Of a stretch of 20,559 bases of DNA, positions 273 to 9,814 are shown one piece after another. Each line of letters opens with the position of its first letter. Positions within the stretch are counted from its first letter, which is position 1. Both the position numbers and the translations under genes were made by a program. Source of the stretch: a virus; IMG/VR virus record IMGVR_UViG_3300010388_000126, positions 1-20,559 of that record; one strand, given 5' to 3'. The notes under the pieces were generated by a model. That model worked only from the letters and a program-made list of their open reading frames with translations, was not told the origin of the DNA and did no database searches.

Positions 273-1829
273 ATGCCCGGTGAGGCAATCCAAATTGGGC
301 CGTTTACTGGTGGCCTAAACACGTTCAGCGACCCTACCGCTATTGCGGATAATGAGCTTTCCGTATGTGACAACTTTGAGCTAGACCTTGACGGTTCGCT
401 GAAGTCTCGTCCACCTTTTGTGTACCGCAACATCGACATGCCTCTAGGGGCTACCGGGGCGGCTACTATTCTTGGCTACTTTTACGGTCCCGGTAACGTC
501 CCTTACCTGATTGCTTCTGACGGCTTGTCGAGTACGTACTATTACAGCGGTACTGCATGGGTTCTGATTACTAACACTTTTGCGGCTACGTCTATGGCGC
601 AGTTCGACAACAAAGCTTGGCTGCTTGCCCCTTACGGGTCGACTAATCCCGGCGGTCGTTGGGAGCCTACAGGCGGTTTCGTAGCTGAACCTGAAATGCC
701 TCGTGGTGACACCATTGTGGCTCACAAGTATCGCCTCTGGGTTGCTGGTGGTCGTGACGCTTTGCTCAACGCCACCACAATGTACTACTCCAACACTCAG
801 GAAGAGACTCCTTTCTGGCCTACATTCTCCTCTACCCTCAACACGGTAAAGGTTGGCTCTGGTGACGGTCAGGCTATTGTCCGTATTGCGGTCTACTACA
901 ACTCTCTCGTCATTTTCCGTACTAACTCGATCTACTCATACCAGTTCTTGAGTGATCCCGGTGCGGGTACGATTTCACTGCTGGTTCCAAACATCGGCCT
1001 GTCGGATAAGAAGTCTCTCGTAGCGTATGAGAACTATATCTATTTCATGTACGACGAGAAGGCTTACGAGTTTGTGAATAACCGTGCCCAGCAGCTGAAC
1101 ATTAAGGTGCCGTTCGAGTCTGGTACTCGGGCAGGTATTGATGAAGCTCAGGCTCGTGCCGTGTCGCTATTCAACAACCGTATTATTTTCAGCTACTTCG
1201 ACAAGTTGTACGTGTTTGGTTTGCGTACCCGTACTTGGACTGTGTGGAAGTCTACTGTGCATGGCGCTATCGGTGAGATTTTTGCTGCTGTTACGGATGC
1301 TGAGTTTGAGGAAGCTATTACTTTCAGTTCTCAGATTGTTCCTTCAGGTACGCCTCGTGTAGCTAAGACGTTGCACATGACGGACGGTATCACTTCAGAT
1401 AAGGAACTGTTTACCTGCGTTGCTCAGACTAAGAACTACAACTACCAGTCAAGCTCGACCTATAAGCGCTTGTTCTGGTGGGGTGTTGACGCTATTTTCA
1501 AGGGCGAAGTTACCGCTACGGTTACGCCTATTACATGGAACCAGTCAATTACGTGGACTCAGATGTATGCCTATACGTGGACGGCTTTGTCGGGGTATGA
1601 CTGGAACCAGCCTGCTAAGCCCGGATCTGATATTCAGACTGTTCGTGACACTGTAGGTCCTGCAGGTATCCGTAAGTTTGTGAAGTTCTTGAAGGCTTTG
1701 CGTTTCCGACAGGTCAACTACAAGCTTGAGTTTGAGACTGACGGTTCTTCCGACACGGCTCCTGTTCGCCTATTTTCTTTGATGACGTATGTACGTGCGC
1801 ACCAAAGAGTGTCAAAAAGTATCACATAG
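273..1829 (+). CDS. Beta-propeller-like tail/neck structural protein
   Basis: 518 residues. The start is fixed by AGGAGG 5 bases upstream of ATG 273. The N-terminus carries the pattern GGLNTFSDP..IADNELS..DNFELD.DGSLKSRP (about residues 14-47), which recurs in large tail, neck or stabilisation proteins of many phages. The rest is rich in aromatic and beta-prone residues. Loosely repeated strand patterns (for example YNSLVIFRTNSIYSYQF, ENYIYFMYDEKAYEF and NNRIIFSYFDKLYVF) are spaced like propeller blades. No signal peptide, membrane span or enzyme motif is visible. I infer a virion structural protein at the tail tube, hub or neck. The exact position in the particle cannot be told from sequence. 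Confidence 0.72.
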   Translation: MPGEAIQIGPFTGGLNTFSDPTAIADNELSVCDNFELDLDGSLKSRPPFVYRNIDMPLGATGAATILGYFYGPGNVPYLIASDGLSSTYYYSGTAWVLITNTFAATSMAQFDNKAWLLAPYGSTNPGGRWEPTGGFVAEPEMPRGDTIVAHKYRLWVAGGRDALLNATTMYYSNTQEETPFWPTFSSTLNTVKVGSGDGQAIVRIAVYYNSLVIFRTNSIYSYQFLSDPGAGTISLLVPNIGLSDKKSLVAYENYIYFMYDEKAYEFVNNRAQQLNIKVPFESGTRAGIDEAQARAVSLFNNRIIFSYFDKLYVFGLRTRTWTVWKSTVHGAIGEIFAAVTDAEFEEAITFSSQIVPSGTPRVAKTLHMTDGITSDKELFTCVAQTKNYNYQSSSTYKRLFWWGVDAIFKGEVTATVTPITWNQSITWTQMYAYTWTALSGYDWNQPAKPGSDIQTVRDTVGPAGIRKFVKFLKALRFRQVNYKLEFETDGSSDTAPVRLFSLMTYVRAHQRVSKSIT

Positions 1830-1845: not shown

Positions 1846-2112
1846 ATGATTCCTGCACGATATGCTATGGCTCGCAAGCCAATGGGCGCTCCCCAAGCGG
1901 AGAAGCCCACTGCGTCTATGCTTGCTCTAACTGCTGGTGCTCCTCAGGGTGGTGCCGGGTTTAATAACTTGGCTGCAGGAAACAAGTCTTATGGCTCGGG
2001 TCGTCCGATGCCTACTGTAGGTAAAGTGCAGAATAAAGGCGGTTACGCTATGCGTGACGGCAAGATGGCTGCACGACGAGAGGCGCTTATGCGCCGTTCT
2101 GGAGCAATGTAA
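1846..2112 (+). CDS. Small basic Gly/Ala/Met-rich protein
   Basis: 88 residues from ATG 1846 (MIPARYAMARK...). The frame could extend back to 1789, but that would overlap the upstream structural gene by 41 bases. From 1846 it begins 17 bases after that gene's stop, with a modest TAGGCGG element about 12 bases upstream. ATG 1867 (MARKPMG...) is a second possibility. The protein is rich in Gly, Ala, Met, Lys and Arg, has no hydrophobic core or known motif, and is probably disordered. Its stop overlaps the next start (TAATG at 2110-2114). Together with the three genes that follow it forms a cluster of tiny proteins inside the virion block. Function unknown. Confidence 0.6.
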   Translation: MIPARYAMARKPMGAPQAEKPTASMLALTAGAPQGGAGFNNLAAGNKSYGSGRPMPTVGKVQNKGGYAMRDGKMAARREALMRRSGAM

Positions 2113-2375
2113 TGGCAAACCCTAACCCTCAAAGCTGGAAGCCTAACAAGAAGGAATATCCCGAGGTTAACGCAGCTAAGGCGCGTATCCACAGCAGCCT
2201 AGCTACTGCTTCTTCCGACCTTAAAAAAGCTGTAGCTAATAAAAAAGCTGCCTACAAGAAATGGAATACTCCTGAGGGAGAATATCCTGAGTATGGAAAA
2301 GCTAAGATGGAAGTGCGTAAAGCAGCTGCCCGCACTAGCGCTCTTAAAAAGACTGTTAAGGGATTTACTAAGTAA
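2112..2375 (+). CDS. Small Lys/Ala-rich helical protein
   Basis: 87 residues, with about 17 Lys and 3 Arg against about 7 acidic residues, so strongly basic. Residues 20-50 and 60-85 are predicted by eye to be helical (Ala/Lys-rich). A duplicated motif is visible: KKEYPEVNAAKA (about 13-24) and EGEYPEYGKAKM (about 55-66), each followed by a basic helix. This suggests two copies of one short unit. The start overlaps the preceding stop by one base in a TAATG junction, with GGAG upstream. I do not recognise the family. Its charge and place among virion genes would suit a DNA-associated internal protein, but that is speculation. Confidence 0.65.
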   Translation: MANPNPQSWKPNKKEYPEVNAAKARIHSSLATASSDLKKAVANKKAAYKKWNTPEGEYPEYGKAKMEVRKAAARTSALKKTVKGFTK

Positions 2376-2377
2376 TC

Positions 2378-2599
2378 ATGACTGGTGCATTGAAGCTCAT
2401 CCTTGAAATGGGCGGTGAAAGTGAGTCTGAGGATTCTGTCGAGTGCCCTAAGTGTGGGGCTGAGGTAGAGGCTGAAGACAAGTTCTGCTGTGATTGTGGC
2501 GCAAAGATGCCAGCTCCCGCTAAGGCTGTAGCTGATGCTCGTAAGGGCGCTTTGTCAAAGATGGCTGCTGAAACTCCTATGGGGCCTGAGGAGGACTAA
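2378..2599 (+). CDS. Small acidic zinc-ribbon protein
   Basis: 73 residues. CPKCG at 23-27 and CCDCG at 37-41 form a CxxC...CxxC zinc ribbon of the type found at the ends of many bacterial and phage proteins. The first 22 residues and the tail after residue 45 are polar or acidic. The start lies two bases after the previous stop (TAATCATG) with only weak ribosome-binding sequence, so expression probably depends on coupling. The stop overlaps the next start (TAATG). A free-standing zinc ribbon within a virion cassette suggests a protein-protein or nucleic-acid binding adaptor. No specific role can be assigned. Confidence 0.7.
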   Translation: MTGALKLILEMGGESESEDSVECPKCGAEVEAEDKFCCDCGAKMPAPAKAVADARKGALSKMAAETPMGPEED

Positions 2600-2754
2600 T
2601 GCCCTTCAAGTCAGACGCACAGCGCAAGTTCTTATTTGCGACAGATCCTAAGCTTGCTAAGAAGTGGGCTAAGGAAACTCCTAAGGGTAAAGATTTACCT
2701 GAGCATGTAAAGGCTCGTAAGAAGGCTCTCTCTAAGAAAGCTGGAGGAAAGTAA
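2599..2754 (+). CDS. 51-aa Lys-rich phage protein (MPFKSxAQRKF type)
   Basis: 51 residues with 14 Lys. ATG 2599 overlaps the preceding stop (TAATG) and is served by GGAGG 5 bases upstream. The stop overlaps the following ATG in another TAATG. The sequence begins MPFKSDAQRKFLFAT and continues with WAKETPKGKDLPEHV. This pattern (MPFKS.AQRR/KF ... ETPKG..LPE.V) recurs in many phage genomes as a conserved hypothetical protein, which supports a real gene despite its size. Strongly basic and probably helical. Function unknown. It may bind DNA or a capsid partner. Confidence 0.75.
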   Translation: MPFKSDAQRKFLFATDPKLAKKWAKETPKGKDLPEHVKARKKALSKKAGGK

Positions 2755-3524
2755 TGCCTAGTGCAGATGCTATAGAACGCCAATCAAAGGCCGCTGCTAT
2801 TAAAGCAAAGGCAGCTGCTCTTACCGGCGGTACTTACAAGAAGGTAGGAACTACTACTAAAGCTCCTGTAGCTAAGGCAGTTCCTAACGTAAAGCCTTCT
2901 ACCTCGTTTACTCCCGGAGTAAGTGGTGGTGGCCTTACCCGCGCCGTATCTGGTCAGATGGCTACAACTCCTGCAGTACAGAATGGCACTGGTCAAGTTG
3001 ACTACGGTACCGCTACTGTCGAGAACCCAGCTCCAGCTCCTGTGGCAGATACTTCTGTCGAAACCCTACGCACTACTCCTGAGTACATGGCTCGTGAGCG
3101 TGCTCTCGCAGCTGCTATGGAACTGTTTGGGCAGACTCAGGCTACTGAGCAGGCTCGCTACAACAAGTCTTATGACGAGTCTTTGGCTGAGCTTGGTTAC
3201 GATCCAACAAAGGCTTCGTTTGACTTTGGCCAGCTTATGTCTTCTGGTGAGCGAGCTACTACTTCTGGTAAGGCTTACAACTCTTTGCGTAATGACTTTG
3301 CTGCTCGTGGCATGTTGCAGTCTGGTGCTTACCAAGCGCAGCGCGGTGTCTTGAGCACCGAACTTGAGAAGCAGCGTAAGGCTATTGACGAAGCTAAGGT
3401 CAACTTCGGTGTCGACCAAGCAGCTAAGTTGGCAGCTCAGAACGCGGCTAACGAGCAAGCTCGTCAGGTTGCTTTAGATGAAGCTAAGCAAGCTGTTCTT
3501 TCTCGATTCGCAATGGGAGCTTAA
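2754..3524 (+). CDS. Ala/Gln-rich virion protein, probable internal or ejected protein
   Basis: 256 residues, with an excellent GGAGG site before ATG 2754 in a TAATG junction. Residues 1-25 (PSADAIERQSKAAA) form a basic helix. About 25-105 is a Thr/Pro/Val-rich low-complexity linker. About 105-256 is a long Ala/Gln/Glu-rich helical region with DFAARGMLQSGAYQAQRG near 179-197. That RGM..SGAY pattern is familiar from conserved phage structural proteins of unknown role. There is no membrane span or enzymatic motif. Position directly before the 341-aa and giant 1744-aa proteins resembles internal-core/ejection protein clusters of podophages (T7 gp14-gp15-gp16 order), by analogy only. The SADA.ER..KAA motif recurs in the next protein. 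Confidence 0.6.
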   Translation: MPSADAIERQSKAAAIKAKAAALTGGTYKKVGTTTKAPVAKAVPNVKPSTSFTPGVSGGGLTRAVSGQMATTPAVQNGTGQVDYGTATVENPAPAPVADTSVETLRTTPEYMARERALAAAMELFGQTQATEQARYNKSYDESLAELGYDPTKASFDFGQLMSSGERATTSGKAYNSLRNDFAARGMLQSGAYQAQRGVLSTELEKQRKAIDEAKVNFGVDQAAKLAAQNAANEQARQVALDEAKQAVLSRFAMGA

Positions 3525-3526
3525 TC

Positions 3527-4552
3527 ATGGCTGAAAAAGATACTCAGTATTCCAGCAGCTCGAAGATGCTGTTTGGCGGTAGTGCTCAGAAACAACTTGG
3601 ACTGGCAGGTGTTCCCGCAGGTTTAATTCCGGGAGCCGCTAAAGTTATCAAAAAGGGCAATGCTCCTAAGAACACTATGGGTCCCGGATCTGCTGATGCT
3701 TTAGAGCGTCGCGCTAAGGCTGCTAAGGGCAATCGTCCTTCTTTTGGAAGAAATCAGTCTACTCCAACTACTGATTCTGGCAGCCAAGAAGATGCATTTA
3801 TGCAAATGCTTGCAGACATTATGGGAACTGGTGGCGGAGGCGGAGGTAGCCGTGCTGCCTACTCAGCTGACCAGATTGCGTCTGCTCAAGCAGGCATGAG
3901 TGCTAACCGTGCCAAGATGGAAGCGTTATACAAGCGTTATGCTGAGGACATTGCAGCTCGTGAAGCTGACATTGCAGCTAACTACGGTACGGCAGCTACT
4001 AACTTGGGCAGTATCTACGACACTGCGACAGGTAACATTAGCAAGGCTTATGATGCTGCTCGTGCGGCTCAGAACCAGCAATTGTTGAACTTGGGTATGA
4101 CTGAGCAGACTCCTGTACAGACTTTCGGTAACCAGACTGCTGCTACGACAGGTCTTGAGAACTTGCGTGCTGCTGTGTTGGCTCAGAACGAAGCTTCTCG
4201 TAAGGCTGCTATTACTAACCAGCGTCTTGCATCTGAGGGCGCTACTCGTGAGGGTGTTCAGAAGCTGTCGGCTTACGATGCTCAGGTTGCTCAGGCTATT
4301 GCTGAGATGCAAAACGCTACTGTCTCTGGCGGTGGCGGCGGTGGCGGTGGCGGGCTTAGCGGCAAGGATTATGCTTCGCTGGCTCTTCAGAAAATGAAGA
4401 TGGATCAAGATGCTCAGATTGCAGCGGCTAAGCTTGCAGCAAATGAGAAGTCAGCTCCTAACCTTCAGGCAGCTTTCAACAACGTAGCTAACACTACCTA
4501 TACTCCAGAACAGCTGAAGGCAGTAGAACTTCAGATGAGGTACGGCAGATAA
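3527..4552 (+). CDS. Ala/Gly-rich virion protein with poly-Gly linkers, probable internal protein
   Basis: 341 residues, ATG two bases after the previous stop (TAATCATG) with GGGAG upstream. Visible layout: polar N-terminus; SADALERRAKAAKG (55-68), matching the start of the upstream neighbour; a Gly6 tract (102-107); a long Ala/Gln-rich helical region about 110-265 with IYDTATGNISKAYDAARAAQ; a Gly9 tract (268-276); a final amphipathic helical segment. The Gly tracts look like flexible linkers between helical modules. No catalytic motif. Likely a structural or DNA-ejection protein that partners with the giant protein downstream. A tail-fibre or scaffold role is possible but the composition fits less well. 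Confidence 0.55.
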   Translation: MAEKDTQYSSSSKMLFGGSAQKQLGLAGVPAGLIPGAAKVIKKGNAPKNTMGPGSADALERRAKAAKGNRPSFGRNQSTPTTDSGSQEDAFMQMLADIMGTGGGGGGSRAAYSADQIASAQAGMSANRAKMEALYKRYAEDIAAREADIAANYGTAATNLGSIYDTATGNISKAYDAARAAQNQQLLNLGMTEQTPVQTFGNQTAATTGLENLRAAVLAQNEASRKAAITNQRLASEGATREGVQKLSAYDAQVAQAIAEMQNATVSGGGGGGGGGLSGKDYASLALQKMKMDQDAQIAAAKLAANEKSAPNLQAAFNNVANTTYTPEQLKAVELQMRYGR

Positions 4553-4565
4553 TAGTTAGTTTTCC

Positions 4566-4580
4566 TGTAACCTAGTTACA
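4566..4580 (+). promoter_or_regulatory. Perfect inverted repeat abutting the giant gene's start codon
   Basis: TGTAAC-CTA-GTTACA: two 6-base arms with a 3-base centre. The last A of the right arm is the A of ATG 4580. No Shine-Dalgarno lies upstream of this start, unlike nearly every other gene in the block. The element could be an operator, a small RNA hairpin limiting access to the start codon, or part of a leaderless-type start. A chance palindrome of this size is possible, so the functional reading is weak. Confidence 0.35.
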
Positions 4581-7500
4581 TGGCGACTAAAGATTTTTCC
4601 CAGTATTTAGCTGAGGCTAGAGCGAAGCAAGGGGTAGCAAAAGCTACCTCTTCTAAGCCCCTTAATTTGAGTGCTTTCCAGAAGAAGCCTGAACAGCCAG
4701 CACTGGATACCTTGTCGTGGGTTATCGACATTGCGTCGCGTCCTATGCGTGCGGTACAGAACATCCCTAATCAGGTTCTTAATGAGATTTCTAAGGCTGA
4801 TACGCAGGGAACTAACTACGATGTTTTGGGCGGTATCGGTAACGTACTTACTTCGCCTATCCGAGGTCTAACTTCTAACAACCCTGAAGATCAGCCTTAC
4901 GGTGCTCAGCTTATTGAGAAGGCTACTGACGTTGCGGGCCAGCTGAATGATCCTCAGTACAAGAATGTTCAAGATAACGTCAACCCTTGGGTAAAGGGCA
5001 TTGGTGGTTTTGGTCTCGATGTTGGCCTCGACCCACTGACTTACGTTCCTATGGGCATTATTGCTTCAGGTACTCGTGGAGCTATTGCCGGGGTTAAGTC
5101 TGCGACAGGTGCCTCCAAGCTAAGCGCAGGTCTTAAGGGGGTCAAGGTTGGGGCTGAGGCAGCTGCCGCTACGCCGTACAAGATTGGGTCTCTCCAGAAG
5201 CAGATGCGCCCTGTCGGTACTGATCAGTGGGCACAGACTGAAGCGTACAAGAAGCTGTTTAAGACTGGCCTCAAGAACAACATCCCCGCAGAGTCGCTAC
5301 TTAAGTTTTCTGAGGGCGCTGATATTCGTGAAGTTGTCGATGGCATTAACTCTGGTATCTGGGCTAAAGCTCAGAAGGCAGGTAAGGCTGTTGACGAAAG
5401 CAAGTACGTTACTCCTGAAAGTTTCTTAGCTACTTACCAAAAGACTGAGAAGCTTCTTCCTAAGGCTAAGGCTTACGACACTCGTCTTCAGGCTGTGGAT
5501 GCTTCTAACTACATTCTTAAGCAGCAGGAAGCTGCGGCTAAGTTGGCTGATGAGGCCGCTGCTACAGCCGATAACGCTGTACAGCCTACGGTAGTACAGG
5601 CTCCTAAGGCTGGCGCTTCGATGGCTGATTCTGTCAGCACTTCGCTGATGGATGAGCTTGATGCTCGTACTCCCGCAGCTCCTTCAAAGACCATCACTGA
5701 GAAGCTTCAAGGTATCAGTGCTGAGGGTCGTGTATCTTCTGTTCTCAAGGAAGCACTCAACTCTAAGACTGAGGCTACTGCCGCTGGGCGTGTGAAGCCT
5801 ATTGATGAGTGGGTTACTAGCAGCATTGAGCTGGCTAAGACTGAGCCTACGCTGCGTATCCCTACCGCTTCGGGCAAGTCTCTAGCAGCTTCGCGTTTGC
5901 TCGACTACAAGAAGCTGCGTGACGCTCCTGTCGGAACTCTGAACGCCCGTGACCTTGCACGTAAGCAGCAGATTGGTGACTTGGTTGACGAGGCTTACGA
6001 CAACTATGTAACTTCTTTGGGCGGCACGACAGCTCCTAAGGCTACTGGCTTGAAGGAATGGTTCGCTAACCCCGAGAACCAGCTCAAGGCTACTGAAGCT
6101 CTTGGCGAGAAGGCTATGGCTCAAGCCGGTACTTTGACTGAGCCTAAGCTGCAGAGTGCTGTGGAGTTCTTGTCGAAGGCTATCGACACTCCTGAATCTC
6201 TCATGTCTGTTGAAGCCTTTGGTCGTACAGCTGAGCAGCAGTTCGCTAAGAATGTCATCAACTCGTACACAGCTCGAACCATTGACGACACGCCTGCTAT
6301 TCAGGTACAGGCTGAGTCTCGTGTGGCTTCTCCTGAGGTTGCTGAGATCAATGCGGCTAATGAGGCTGGCGAAGATTTGGTGTCGCAGTACTGGGCTTCT
6401 GGCTTACAGAGCGAAGAAGAAGCTAACTTGATTCTTTCTTCGGTCAAGGTTTACTTGGCTAAGATGCTTCGTGACCGTGTAGGTATGAAGTTCAACTCCC
6501 CTAAGGGAGCTGCTAAGTCTGATGCTGAAATGTTTAAGGGCACGGCTAATTGGATTAACCAGTTTAATGGTCGTGACCAAGTTATGTTGTGGCAAGATTT
6601 GGCTAAGCCTGTCTACAAAGAGATTGATGACTACAACAATTTCTTGCGCGCTGAAGCTGCTCGATTGAAGGATCCCCGAATTAAGAACGGCGTAATTGCT
6701 GGAGCTAGACGAGCAGAGAGTGCTGATGCTGAGATTGCTCGTCGCTATATCGCTGCTCGTCGTCTGCTTGACCAAGAACTTGGTATGTCTGCGTGGATGG
6801 GTAAGGGCGAAGTACGAGTACCCATGTACTTGGATCAAGCTATTCAAGCTTTACAGCACGCTGCTTTTACTGGTGAGAAAAAGTTACTGAACCGTCACCT
6901 TGTTAGCATGGCAGTCTTCAACAAAAACACGGTTGTTCCCATGAGCAACCTTGATGAAGCTATTGCTTTGAAGTTGTCAGACTTAGAAGTTTCTGATGAT
7001 GTTCTTCGCGAGGTTCTGCGTCAGCAAACTGGCTCTGCCAATATCCTTACGGACAAGCTTTCCGACAAATTGACTGGTGAGTTTGGATTCTTCCCCGGTA
7101 AGAAGGCTCCTAGTCCTGCTACAGGTATGAAGTTTAAGGCTAAATATGAAAAGGGCCGCACTGACCCTATTGGTTGGTACGGCATTGTCGATCCGGCAAG
7201 TTTTGAAGATGCTTTAATCAAGCTCATCAATGACGCAGTGCCTATGTTTGACAAGGTTATCTCTAGCAATAAGGTCGCTGCAGCTGCTCGTACTAACGCT
7301 GAGTACCTCGACATTACAGCTGAGCAGTGGCAGAAGATTACTGACATGGTAATGAGTCCTGAGAACGCAGCTCAGGGTTACCGCATGATGGCTAACATTT
7401 CTGAGAGTGTTGCCGAGGCTGGAGCTAAGGGCCGTGCAACCTTTGACGCTCAGGCAAACGCTTCGCGTGACGTTGCTGACCTCATCTCTAACGACAGTAT

Positions 7501-9814
7501 TCACGCAGCTCAGGATTACGTAGCTGCTGACCGTATGCTTACTGGTTACAAAGCTGATGCTGAATTGGCCCAGAAGTCTGCTGAGAAAGCGTGGAGCGAC
7601 AAGTACTACGCTAAGTGGGCTGATGAGCGTGTCAAGAGCAGCAAGGAACCTTTGAATGGTGTCGATGAAGCTGGCAACATTATTGATGAGGCTGACTACT
7701 ACGCAGCTGTAGGGCGTGAAGCTCACGGCCTACGCCTTGGACGTACCCGCCACATGCTTATGTCGATGTTCAACAAGGGCTACGGCGCTGAGGATGTCAT
7801 CTATCCTTGGGCTGGGCAAGAGGCTAATTTCTCGAAGATGATTCACCAGTATGACAGTGGCCTTGCTGACATTGCTCGTAAGTACAATGACCCTATTGCT
7901 CAGGGCAACAAGACTACTGTCGCTCAGAAGGCTTTGCAAGACATTGCTAATAACAACCTTGATGACCCACTGACCAAGGCTGCTGTGGACGCATTGCGTC
8001 CTTACGTAGACTTCTTATTCGGGACTAGCAGTGACCGTGGGATTACTAGCGTATGGCTTGCTGAGGGCGCTAACCTCAACGCTTTCGAGACTTACGTAAC
8101 TCGTGCGGGCAAGCTTGAATTCCCCTTCGACAAGAACATGCTGAGCCGTATGGCTAAAGCTGCTGATAAGCCTGAGATCGCAGTTGCTATGGATAACTGG
8201 GGCGACTGGCTGAAGAATGTCGATAACCCCTTCGACTTCTTACAGCGTATGAACTATGCAGCGTTACGTTACACCTCGGACAAGGCGCTTGCCATGTCGT
8301 TGCAGACTGTACGTGGCGGTGTCTCGATGAAGCCTGCTGTTGGCTTTACCAAGGTTGGTAAGAACTTCCAGTATGGAGCTAACCCTCTGCTGGCTCACCT
8401 GCCTGAAGATGTTTACATAGCTGACGAACTGCTGTCTCAGATCAACAGGCTTGAAGAAATCATGATGGAAAGCAGCGAATACTTCGGTGTTTTCAAAAAC
8501 TTCATCAACGACAAGTACTCTCCATTGCTTGCCAACTGGAAGTTCTCAGTTACTGTTCTCCGTGTCGGTCACCACATCCGTAACCATTTCAGTAACAAGT
8601 CGCTTCAGTTCATGGACCTCGGCCCTAAGAACTTCATGTGGTCTGATAAGGCTGGCTGGCAAGTACTGATGGCTTACAAGAAGTCGAACTCTTTCGATCT
8701 TGCTAAGCAGGCTGAGAGCTTGGGCTTGAAGGAAATGCCTAAGCCTACGACTGTATCGTTTACGAGCAAGGTCTTTGGCGATGTCACGATGGAAGATGTC
8801 AACAAGGTTATCGACAAGGGCGGTCTTTACGAAGGCTACAAGACTGTTGAAGACGTTATGCCTACTGACACTGGCAAGAGCTTGGTGCAAAAGCTCAGTG
8901 ACATTGCAGCTATGCGTGGAACTAAGGTTGAGGAATACGCCGGTAATTTGTCGGAGTTCCAGTCATGGCACAACCGTGCTGCTCACGTACTACAGTTCAT
9001 GCGGAACAATGCTGATACTGGAATGTACAAGACTCTTGACGAGCTTGGTGATGCAGCTACGGCTCACGTTCGTCGCCAGCAGCCATCTAACTTGATGCTG
9101 ACCAACAAGGAAAAGCAGCTTCGTCTTATCATTCCGTTCTACGGATGGTTCCGACAGGCACTCCCTGTTATCGCTGAAGGTATCCTCACCCAGCCCGGTC
9201 GCTTCATGATGATTCCTAAGGCTTCATTCAACTTGGCTATCGGCATGGGCGTAAACCCATACCAGATGTACGACCCATTCCCTCAGGATGAGATGTTCCC
9301 AAGCTTTATCAAGGACCAGTTGCTTGGCCCTATAGCTAAGATCAATGGCAAGTACTACACTGCCAGCCCCGGCTTCGCTCCTGTAGATATCTTGAACCAG
9401 TTCGTGCCTGACCCTATTCGCGGTATTGCGGGAATGTCTACGCCATTTATTAAGGTTCCTGCTGAAGTTCTTGGCGGGTCTAACTGGGGTACTGGCGCAA
9501 AGATTAACGATATGTCTGATTACTGGGATGCTCAGCTGCCCGGTATCAACTACCTGTCGAACATGACGGGCACCTCGGTCACTGGAAGCATTGTTTCTTT
9601 GCTTCAGGGACAGGGACTTGACCCTCAGTACGCTGTGTCGAAGGGCAACAAGACTCCGGGCGATCAGGGTCTCAGCGTATCTAACTGGTTCACTGGTGCT
9701 GGTATTCAGAACATCTCGAAGGAAAACTACCGCAACTATGCAGAGATTGAGAAGCGTAATGCTGCCAAGCTTGAGCAAGAACGTGCCGCTGGCACAGCAC
9801 GTAGTCCTTTCTAA
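4580..9814 (+). CDS. Giant virion protein (1744 aa), probable internal/ejected protein
   Basis: 1744 residues in one uninterrupted frame, about a quarter of the window. The N-terminus holds GFGLDVGLDPLTYVP (143-157), a motif I associate with giant phage internal or large polyvalent proteins. About 310-700 is Ala/Glu/Lys-rich helix. About 1327-1340 has RVGHHIRNHFSNK, and about 1510-1600 has PFYGWFRQALP (1519-1529) followed by hydrophobic, membrane-compatible segments. The (V/I)PF..W and HIRN patterns recur at the C-terminal ends of such giants. I see no lysozyme, protease or polymerase active site. Size, helical content and placement after two Ala-rich proteins suggest a protein delivered with the genome, like T7 gp16. 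The start has no Shine-Dalgarno and lies 27 bases after the previous stop. Confidence 0.65.
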   Translation: MATKDFSQYLAEARAKQGVAKATSSKPLNLSAFQKKPEQPALDTLSWVIDIASRPMRAVQNIPNQVLNEISKADTQGTNYDVLGGIGNVLTSPIRGLTSNNPEDQPYGAQLIEKATDVAGQLNDPQYKNVQDNVNPWVKGIGGFGLDVGLDPLTYVPMGIIASGTRGAIAGVKSATGASKLSAGLKGVKVGAEAAAATPYKIGSLQKQMRPVGTDQWAQTEAYKKLFKTGLKNNIPAESLLKFSEGADIREVVDGINSGIWAKAQKAGKAVDESKYVTPESFLATYQKTEKLLPKAKAYDTRLQAVDASNYILKQQEAAAKLADEAAATADNAVQPTVVQAPKAGASMADSVSTSLMDELDARTPAAPSKTITEKLQGISAEGRVSSVLKEALNSKTEATAAGRVKPIDEWVTSSIELAKTEPTLRIPTASGKSLAASRLLDYKKLRDAPVGTLNARDLARKQQIGDLVDEAYDNYVTSLGGTTAPKATGLKEWFANPENQLKATEALGEKAMAQAGTLTEPKLQSAVEFLSKAIDTPESLMSVEAFGRTAEQQFAKNVINSYTARTIDDTPAIQVQAESRVASPEVAEINAANEAGEDLVSQYWASGLQSEEEANLILSSVKVYLAKMLRDRVGMKFNSPKGAAKSDAEMFKGTANWINQFNGRDQVMLWQDLAKPVYKEIDDYNNFLRAEAARLKDPRIKNGVIAGARRAESADAEIARRYIAARRLLDQELGMSAWMGKGEVRVPMYLDQAIQALQHAAFTGEKKLLNRHLVSMAVFNKNTVVPMSNLDEAIALKLSDLEVSDDVLREVLRQQTGSANILTDKLSDKLTGEFGFFPGKKAPSPATGMKFKAKYEKGRTDPIGWYGIVDPASFEDALIKLINDAVPMFDKVISSNKVAAAARTNAEYLDITAEQWQKITDMVMSPENAAQGYRMMANISESVAEAGAKGRATFDAQANASRDVADLISNDSIHAAQDYVAADRMLTGYKADAELAQKSAEKAWSDKYYAKWADERVKSSKEPLNGVDEAGNIIDEADYYAAVGREAHGLRLGRTRHMLMSMFNKGYGAEDVIYPWAGQEANFSKMIHQYDSGLADIARKYNDPIAQGNKTTVAQKALQDIANNNLDDPLTKAAVDALRPYVDFLFGTSSDRGITSVWLAEGANLNAFETYVTRAGKLEFPFDKNMLSRMAKAADKPEIAVAMDNWGDWLKNVDNPFDFLQRMNYAALRYTSDKALAMSLQTVRGGVSMKPAVGFTKVGKNFQYGANPLLAHLPEDVYIADELLSQINRLEEIMMESSEYFGVFKNFINDKYSPLLANWKFSVTVLRVGHHIRNHFSNKSLQFMDLGPKNFMWSDKAGWQVLMAYKKSNSFDLAKQAESLGLKEMPKPTTVSFTSKVFGDVTMEDVNKVIDKGGLYEGYKTVEDVMPTDTGKSLVQKLSDIAAMRGTKVEEYAGNLSEFQSWHNRAAHVLQFMRNNADTGMYKTLDELGDAATAHVRRQQPSNLMLTNKEKQLRLIIPFYGWFRQALPVIAEGILTQPGRFMMIPKASFNLAIGMGVNPYQMYDPFPQDEMFPSFIKDQLLGPIAKINGKYYTASPGFAPVDILNQFVPDPIRGIAGMSTPFIKVPAEVLGGSNWGTGAKINDMSDYWDAQLPGINYLSNMTGTSVTGSIVSLLQGQGLDPQYAVSKGNKTPGDQGLSVSNWFTGAGIQNISKENYRNYAEIEKRNAAKLEQERAAGTARSPF

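Follow-up and report, generated by a model that had tools for sequence, protein, structure and literature searches.

The locus and its genes

The stretch of DNA analyzed here (“the window”) makes up an entire IMG/VR virus record (20,559 bases, linear by class), the very beginning of which (bases 1-76) is C-rich and unlike the relatives, with the homology to an upstream tail-tube-type gene starting abruptly at about base 77, which makes this first end look like a sequencing/assembly artefact. Four small open reading frames (ORFs), whose products are 88, 87, 73 and 51 aa long (o88, o87, o73 and o51, respectively), follow one another on the plus strand at the coordinates where the initial annotation had them, and are found in the following surroundings:

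273..1829, + strand: podophage tail nozzle (propeller-like), 518 aa, as predicted from its AF2 model, Foldseek and VIA
1846..2112, + strand: o88, 88 aa, the conserved core member (tblastn in podovirus relatives, alignment A1, AF2, pN/pS)
2112..2375, + strand: o87, an orphan basic protein with two EYPE units (repeat test; without relatives in viral contigs)
2378..2599, + strand: o73, an acidic protein with a single zinc ribbon (PF13240; six relatives)
2599..2754, + strand: o51, an MPFKS-family protein (phrog_1375 profile; family alignment A4)
2754..3524, + strand: o256, putative first core/ejection-type protein, by position (synteny)
3527..4552, + strand: o341, putative second core/ejection-type protein, by position (synteny), tag-less
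4580..9814, + strand: giant putative internal/ejection-type protein of 1744 aa, by size and position (tblastn)

The junctions between these genes had been read correctly (TAATG at o88/o87, o73/o51 and o51/o256, and TAATCATG at o87/o73), as had the basic nature of three of the cluster proteins (pI 11.3, 10.1 and 10.4) and their Lys content (17 in the 87-aa and 14 in the 51-aa protein). The two EYPE units suspected in the 87-aa protein proved to be a true internal repeat, its best ungapped 26-residue self-match scoring 47, whereas no more than 37 was reached in 300 shuffles (P=0.003), and the zinc ribbon proposed for the 73-aa protein, which is acidic (pI 4.4), is backed by a match to the Pfam profile PF13240 with its four Cys (E 2.9e-6; 27.3 bits at a cut-off of 25). 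As for the start of o88, the program-made ORF list puts it at 1789 (107 aa), but the alignment with its closest relatives (A1) begins at the ATG in position 1846, which is taken as the start. Purifying selection is seen in o88, o73 and o51 (pooled pN/pS of 0.28, 0.35 and 0.33, respectively), the value for the nozzle gene being 0.16.

Phage group and the virion gene block

Relatives of the 518-aa protein encoded just upstream of o88 were found by tblastn in 11 records of an annotated phage collection, including Shocker, DS1 and Arthrobacter Jasminevirus phages (in the case of Microbacterium phage Shocker over the full length and with 49% identity), as well as at 38 loci in viral contigs; none were found in bacterial genome contigs. 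Podovirus morphology is documented for Jasmine (PMC5513430). The laboratory hosts are Microbacterium paraoxydans NRRL B-14843 for Shocker and Arthrobacter sp. ATCC 21022 for Jasminevirus. An AF2 model of the protein, built from 17 sequences (mean pLDDT 68), was used as a query: in Foldseek, the tails of podophages Pa223, VP1, Pan3 and P22 came out on top and that of T7 was ranked 13, and VIA gave Z of 23.2 for Pa223 and of 21.4, over 357 residues, for P22 gp10, whose fold the model shares. Other propellers start at Z 20.8 and go down from there, so that the full-length coverage by the tail proteins weighs more than Z. Judged by this modelled nozzle propeller fold, the 518-aa protein is a podophage tail nozzle.

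In Shocker, DS1 and Brad, a single small gene (gp34 in Shocker, gp23 in Brad) lies between the nozzle gene and that of a 240-247-aa protein, after which come the genes of a 417-441-aa and a 1743-1803-aa protein, an order that is the same as in the window, and the giant 1744-aa protein of the latter matches Shocker gp37 (1743 aa) as well as DS1 and Brad in tblastn. It is this order, shared with the podoviruses and with T7 (gp11-12-13-14-15-16), that suggests core/ejection roles for o256, o341 and the 1744-aa protein. The placement of the four small genes in a virion block, as claimed initially, thus stands, there being a nozzle fold upstream and a succession of nozzle, small gene(s), o256, o341 and giant gene that is kept in the named podoviruses, and the window is a podovirus fragment, kin to the podoviruses of actinobacteria. 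A PDB sequence search with the o88 and nozzle profiles gave no match; four weak rows obtained there with the o256 profile were judged unrelated.

Conservation and turnover of the small genes

The relatives of the locus were grouped by sequence alone, and four of them (L040, L042, L043 and L044) were removed before counting, being the same contig as, or identical at the locus to, L037, L041, L002 and L004. The conserved gene order that the initial annotation had looked to in related phages turned out to hold for a part of the cluster: o88 is present wherever the contig reaches, o73 and an o51 bearing the C-terminal tail described below are confined to six near relatives (L002, L003, L004, L006, L037 and L041, with copies), and no relatives of o87 were found in viral contigs. 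For o88, tblastn relatives (including Shocker gp34 and DS1) were obtained in 9/9 of the records searched, that in Brad (Jasminevirus) being weak (E 1.7e-4), and among the nozzle-bearing loci of sufficient extent only Brad lacks the C-terminal half at the threshold used there.

The further small genes found between o88 and o51 differ from one near relative to the next: L002 has two (products of 96 and 60 aa), as does L006 (179 and 97 aa), and a single product of 134, 76, 90 and 109 aa is encoded in L003, L004, L037 and L041, respectively. In most members of a second group of relatives (L007-L035), their place is taken by a 55-60-aa family, by a 45-50-aa family or by the two together. In the latter group and its kin, just before the first core-type protein, one also finds 90-134-aa proteins of family F5 (L018:5256-5591 and relatives), which are tag-less and in many of which the IPSPRQ and NDAFFGPDRKRFDIVEF patterns recur.

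Such a fast turnover of accessory genes between close relatives resembles that of counter-defence genes, and the zinc ribbon is a common module in small host-acting proteins, both of which speak for late host-acting proteins (e.g., anti-defence or takeover ones) that share a host or phage partner via their tail and stay unpackaged. This explanation is, nevertheless, quite unlikely, given that the tailed o88 immediately follows the nozzle gene in all relatives with contigs extending that far, and that the PADLOC hits are weak and all to the zinc-ribbon protein.

A shared C-terminal motif

Overlooked in the initial annotation was that all four cluster proteins end in A-R-[KR]-x-A-[LIM]-x-[KR]-[KR]-[LMA] (the “tag”), as do many different small proteins that occupy the same slot in the relatives. 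The copies present in the window are the following:

2071..2103, + strand: o88 tag, ARREALMRRSG (left-out-family p=0.002; stricter null 0.004)
2328..2360, + strand: o87 tag, ARTSALKKTVK (left-out-family p=0.014; stricter null 0.002)
2537..2569, + strand: o73 tag, ARKGALSKMAA (left-out-family p=0.002; stricter null 0.002)
2713..2745, + strand: o51 tag, ARKKALSKKAG (left-out-family p=0.001; stricter null 0.002)

After the small proteins had been clustered minus their last 24 residues (16 for the short ones), a motif finder run on 14 groups, with no alignment by hand, put out ARKKALKKKAG, located mostly near C-ends, with a log-likelihood of 117.7, the highest value among 25 shuffled sets being 67.3, a gap that is overstated, since the shuffles also destroy the within-family likeness. 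In the left-out-family test (one representative each), 9/13 small families had p ≤ 0.014, with the best site at most 12 residues from the end, and under a stricter null, where only the last 32 residues are shuffled, p ≤ 0.02 was seen for 8/13 (F10 now being at 0.09). The 25 control sets of 13 other related-genome proteins, drawn from a pool from which 4/144 motif-pattern proteins (three small-gene and one o256-type) had been removed beforehand, gave 0-2/13. The four families missed in the first of these tests (F0c at 0.43, F5 at 0.78, F8 at 0.67 and F9 at 0.12), joined by F10 under the stricter null, count against the docking role that is proposed for the tag further below.

It is the family counts, and not the locus counts, that bear the argument, as many of the loci are near-identical contigs. 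The families themselves were set by sequence similarity with the low-complexity filter off, and any hidden homology between them would cut the number of independent cases; the same filter setting led to a cluster (F0) that mixed o88-type, o256-type and other rows and was split by rule, with three rows moved by hand. In L008 and L011, the motif reaches the very end and exceeds the 11-wide scoring frame, and is scored as a miss. The sequences are of low complexity and the motif is short, so small Ala/Lys/Arg-rich C-termini might be thought to look alike by chance as a mere composition artefact, which is highly improbable in view of the composition-keeping shuffles, the left-out families, the matched control sets and the later-fetched loci (see below); that a shared C-terminal motif exists is in very little doubt.

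Besides Arg, its most conserved positions include Ala and Leu. The clustering of conserved residues on one helix face was not significant (P=0.089) and is not used as support here. In the AF2 model of o88, which is of low confidence (pTM 0.23), an extended N-part is accompanied by a single helix (65-84) containing most of the motif. No description of the motif was found in literature searches on podovirus small virion proteins, shared C-terminal motifs and the capsid targeting sequence, nor in those on MPFKS, Jasminevirus, Cellulosimicrobium phage DS1 and the Microbacterium podoviral Shocker.

Specificity of the motif

When the products of all called genes were scanned with the motif matrix over their last 32 residues, scores of at least 12 were, wherever the genes had been called, restricted to this locus: they were reached by 3/23 called genes of the window (plus o51 at 23.0), 4/61 of G001, 3/62 of G002 (the zinc ribbon of which has 9.6) and 1/59 of G005 (the o88-type one, at 22.3, its o256-type having 9.7), and the next-best gene elsewhere scored 1.4 in the window, 3.2 in G001 and 7.3 in G002. 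As the matrix was built from the same families, the high scores are not independent. No gene reached 12 in G003 (0/46; best its o256-type at 11.3) and Shocker (0/51) because the gene caller had lost their o88-type genes, which were scored in a separate o88-type scan (20.8 for that of Shocker) or fail for width; in the window, the same gene caller lost o51 to an antisense ORF and started o88 at 1789.

Controls with the motif matrix gave 0/15 for both the nozzle and the o341-type proteins, and out of 337 small proteins encoded at other phage loci, which had been picked for their MPFKS genes and are not a random sample, one scored at least 9.6 and none at least 12. At the score used, none of the 64 strongly basic small-protein tails from other phage loci matched, so that the motif is more specific than charge.

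The latter matters for the idea, close to that of the initial annotation, that these are DNA-condensing/scaffolding proteins binding the packaged DNA by charge, with the common tail being a non-specific basic DNA-binding helix. Such a view would accommodate the pI above 10 of three of the four proteins, the Lys/Arg-richness of the motif and the precedent of T7 gp7.3, which touches the DNA end via Lys (PMC11784390), but sits badly with the motif being borne by o73 at its pI of 4.4, with the absence of matches among those 64 tails and with Ala and Leu, besides Arg, being among the most conserved positions, and is thus unlikely. DNA condensation as the common theme of the cluster finds no support here: one of the four proteins is acidic, and what they have in common is a specific C-terminal motif rather than mere charge.

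Selection on the protein sequence

At same-residue sites between the tags of one genome (ten loci), identical codons were found in 113/274 cases, with 110.2 expected from codon usage; the codons are therefore randomised between tags, and selection acts on the protein. The tags are either old or convergent, and are kept as protein. The codon test rejects both a recent duplication of DNA and a repeat element as origins of this common tail, and a translational-coupling sequence as its cause is incompatible with the randomisation of codons; the GGAGG found in the o51 tail overlaps just the motif end and the sequence beyond it.

An explanation by common descent only, whereby the accessory genes would have arisen as duplicates of the o88 3′ end, or of that of another member, and acquired new N-terminal parts, leaving the motif as a remnant or as a solubility/stability aid, would agree with the tandem arrangement of the genes on the same strand with the same type of junction, and with an L192 protein in which the motif is present twice. 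The residues, however, have persisted while their codons were being randomised, from which it follows that the motif is kept by selection, and MPFKS proteins of other phages are without the tail (0/51, see below), which together render descent alone rather improbable.

Additional loci

A search with the o88 profile led to 80 loci, 31 of them being contigs already used and 49 being new contigs, many small genes of which fall in known families. Nine small ORFs were new, and four of these were set aside by eye (three look non-coding and one looks F5-like). A new second-gene family was seen to end in the motif in L192 (…AREDAIKKRLN), L198 (…AQKEAIRRRLN) and L196 (…PRITAIRKRLG), with p=0.002 for each of the three, and L160 encodes two short proteins with weaker versions of it at their ends (scores of 6.6 and 1.1; p of 0.006 and 0.008). 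The likeness of L192 and L198 has an E of 4e-10, and that of L196 only of 0.002, which makes the family membership of L196 less sure; as these three are one family or nearly so, about three independent new cases, not five, have been gained. The confidence placed in the motif and in docking is left unmoved by this recount, because it is the left-out-family tests that bear the argument.

Several results from the relatives have to be counted against a docking role of the tag: at their C-ends, the second-gene proteins of L185 and L194 reach scores of just 3.9 and 3.7 and that of L184 is without the motif (its only one, at 10.2, being near the N-end), the motif is absent from 11/11 proteins of the F5 family, and the o256-type proteins, which would be expected to share a portal/core dock, match in only 10/29 sequences. 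The latter do so at p ≤ 0.02 and most strongly in Brad, the window's own copy having p=0.40, and with such a proportion the o256-type tail was not accepted as a full motif member.

All of the o88-type proteins, in turn, score for the motif (15/15, of which 11 are from the later-fetched loci; the o88-type is among the training families), and in seven of these 15 an extension of 17-22 residues follows it. The combination of an o88-type tag and extension is seen in the distant lineages L184, L185, L192, L194, L196, L198, L202 and L193, the extension mostly being TGNPMN...GVF and differing from this in L193, L196 and L202. The above-mentioned 146-aa protein with two copies of the motif (L192:3749-4189) has them near the N-terminus (residue 24) and at the C-terminus, the two copies reaching scores of 17.2 and 9.5.

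Possible function and comparison with known systems

Chances seem to be about even that o88 docks on a site of the virion by means of its C-terminal helix and that the accessory proteins copy its address, are packaged and are perhaps injected. The cluster, flanked by the tail-nozzle and the internal (ejection-type) genes, would then serve small late proteins as an accessory slot, in which o88 would be the constant member, probably residing in the tail-portal-core assembly with its extended N-part and with the helix as an anchor. The docking motif, ARxxA[LIM]x[KR][KR][LMA], would form a part of that helix, if the low-confidence model of o88 is right. Since o73, o51 and o87 carry the motif of o88, they could occupy the same docking sites, through which they may be built into the virion, and they would probably leave it early in infection. 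What the computation establishes is the motif itself, where it lies, that it is confined to this locus wherever the genes were called, and that selection maintains it in the protein; its role as a docking signal, a partner in the virion, and the packaging and delivery of the accessory proteins are inferred, and the packaging or host action that had been suggested for the small proteins initially is plausible. The broader proposal, tentative but worth entertaining, is that of a transferable C-terminal helical tag that would load changing, otherwise unrelated small proteins onto a single virion site beside the nozzle/portal/core, to be delivered with or before the DNA, and would thereby maintain a reservoir of injected factors.

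Were the motif indeed an address tag, small genes ending in it could be predicted to encode virion/injected proteins from their sequence alone, and this in a region of phage genomes that is full of unnamed tiny ORFs, which would provide a route to new early-acting phage proteins. It would also suggest that the tiny, fast-changing genes between the nozzle and internal-protein genes are not noise. The terms “mass spectrometry” and “SDS-PAGE” are absent from the main text of the article on Arthrobacter phages (PMC5513430).

One parallel is T7 gp7.3, which is present in six copies, each of them gripping two neighbouring nozzle subunits through a C-terminal loop and contacting the DNA with its basic N-part (PMC11784390). 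Like the proteins proposed here to dock, gp7.3 is small and basic, is anchored on the nozzle by its C-terminal loop with the rest surrounding the channel DNA (PMC11784390), and is encoded in the virion region; unlike them, it scores -1.2 for the motif, with the best site at residue 4, and its gene precedes that of the portal instead of following that of the nozzle. T7 gp6.7 is likewise 88 aa long and bridges portal and core, but has been resolved on the portal via an N-terminal loop, unlike the tag (PMC11784390), and T7 gp13 likewise holds the position after the nozzle gene; neither of the two fits the motif (-4.9 and -1.5, respectively). No set of different proteins with a tag tail was found in the T7 stretch scanned (0/14 genes scoring at least 12), and gp6.7, gp7.3, gp13 and gp14, considered as possible family members by motif, gave no match, which counts against the docking role as well.

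A parallel of another kind is the T4 capsid targeting sequence, which is N-terminal and removed by the prohead protease, whereas the motif described here is C-terminal and known from genes alone. The T-even internal proteins are diverse small packaged defence proteins that have only this targeting sequence in common (PMC3012670), and the likeness lies in a diverse set of small proteins with one common targeting sequence (PMC3012670), the packaging being putative in the present case. By this analogy, the podoviral tag would be a C-terminal counterpart of the T4 capsid targeting sequence. Among the matches listed, the literature on capsid targeting sequences deals mostly with T4, the others being SPN3US, P1 and P22. 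In P22, the gene of gp26 follows gene 10, and, when compared by gene position alone, the small tagged proteins are found in that slot instead. P22 gp26 is a trimeric needle that plugs the channel (PMC8402733).

As the sequence-level features tested for T7 gp7.3 and for the T4 system are missing, the cluster is to be filed under neither, though it may work like them; the locus combines features of both, with a constant tagged protein immediately behind the nozzle gene and tagged companions that change.

The MPFKS family

The o51 protein belongs to phrog_1375 by profile (E 3.2e-5; residues 3-40) and has its N-terminal core, MPFKSxxQ...P...A, with M1, P2, F3, S5, Q8 and P17 being invariant in the family alignment (A4). 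The initial annotation was right in that the 51-aa family turns up repeatedly in phages and has no described function (phrog_1375 is of “unknown function”): with o51 as the query, 66 loci were found in viral contigs, five of which (L040-L044) are of this phage group. Most of the MPFKS genes are stand-alone ORFs of about 33-67 aa, and in a few cases the MPFKS sequence is the start (L045, L050, L086 and L104) or the end (L047, L093 and L102) of a larger ORF. None of the 51 unique MPFKS proteins from other phages scores at least 9 for the tag (0/51), the tag tail being seen, among the members compared, only in this phage group, which means that the tail was either gained by a protein that already existed or lost in the other phages.

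Five annotated isolate genomes have the MPFKS gene within or close to sets of packaging, structural or lysis genes: in FlowerPower it adjoins the holin gene (E 3e-4), in C75C1 it belongs to a string of tiny genes that precedes a “head closure” gene (E 4e-3), and the weak matches in 023Pt (E 0.04), S-CBS2 (E 0.3) and Horseradish (E 3) deserve little weight. Of 115 neighbour proteins around the MPFKS genes at 38 loci, 83 were scanned (32, mostly on the opposite strand, were left out), with matches to 63 PHROG families; among the 25 listed, 19 are named, 15 as packaging/virion, one as holin and three as other. No publication on the family was recognizable by title among the matches listed for literature mentioning MPFKS. 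The MPFKS profile retrieved 14 rows from PDB, mostly the designed propellers Cake, Bagel and Scone, which were dismissed because no single stretch passed alone and the chains are mostly repetitive.

At two loci, an MPFKS ORF of 42-43 aa is nested in another frame within a giant gene (L109:5001-5129 and L110:4001-4132), the host gene being an annotated structural protein of Flavobacterium phage elemoC_14-1A in the former and the giant gene of MW202828 in the latter case. The nested frame is conserved at 32/39 residues versus 19/38 in the annotated frame, and may therefore be an overprinted gene that is absent from the annotations. In L104 (6001-9879), a contig of 178 kb, an ORF of 1292 aa has an MPFKS-like start at its N-terminus.
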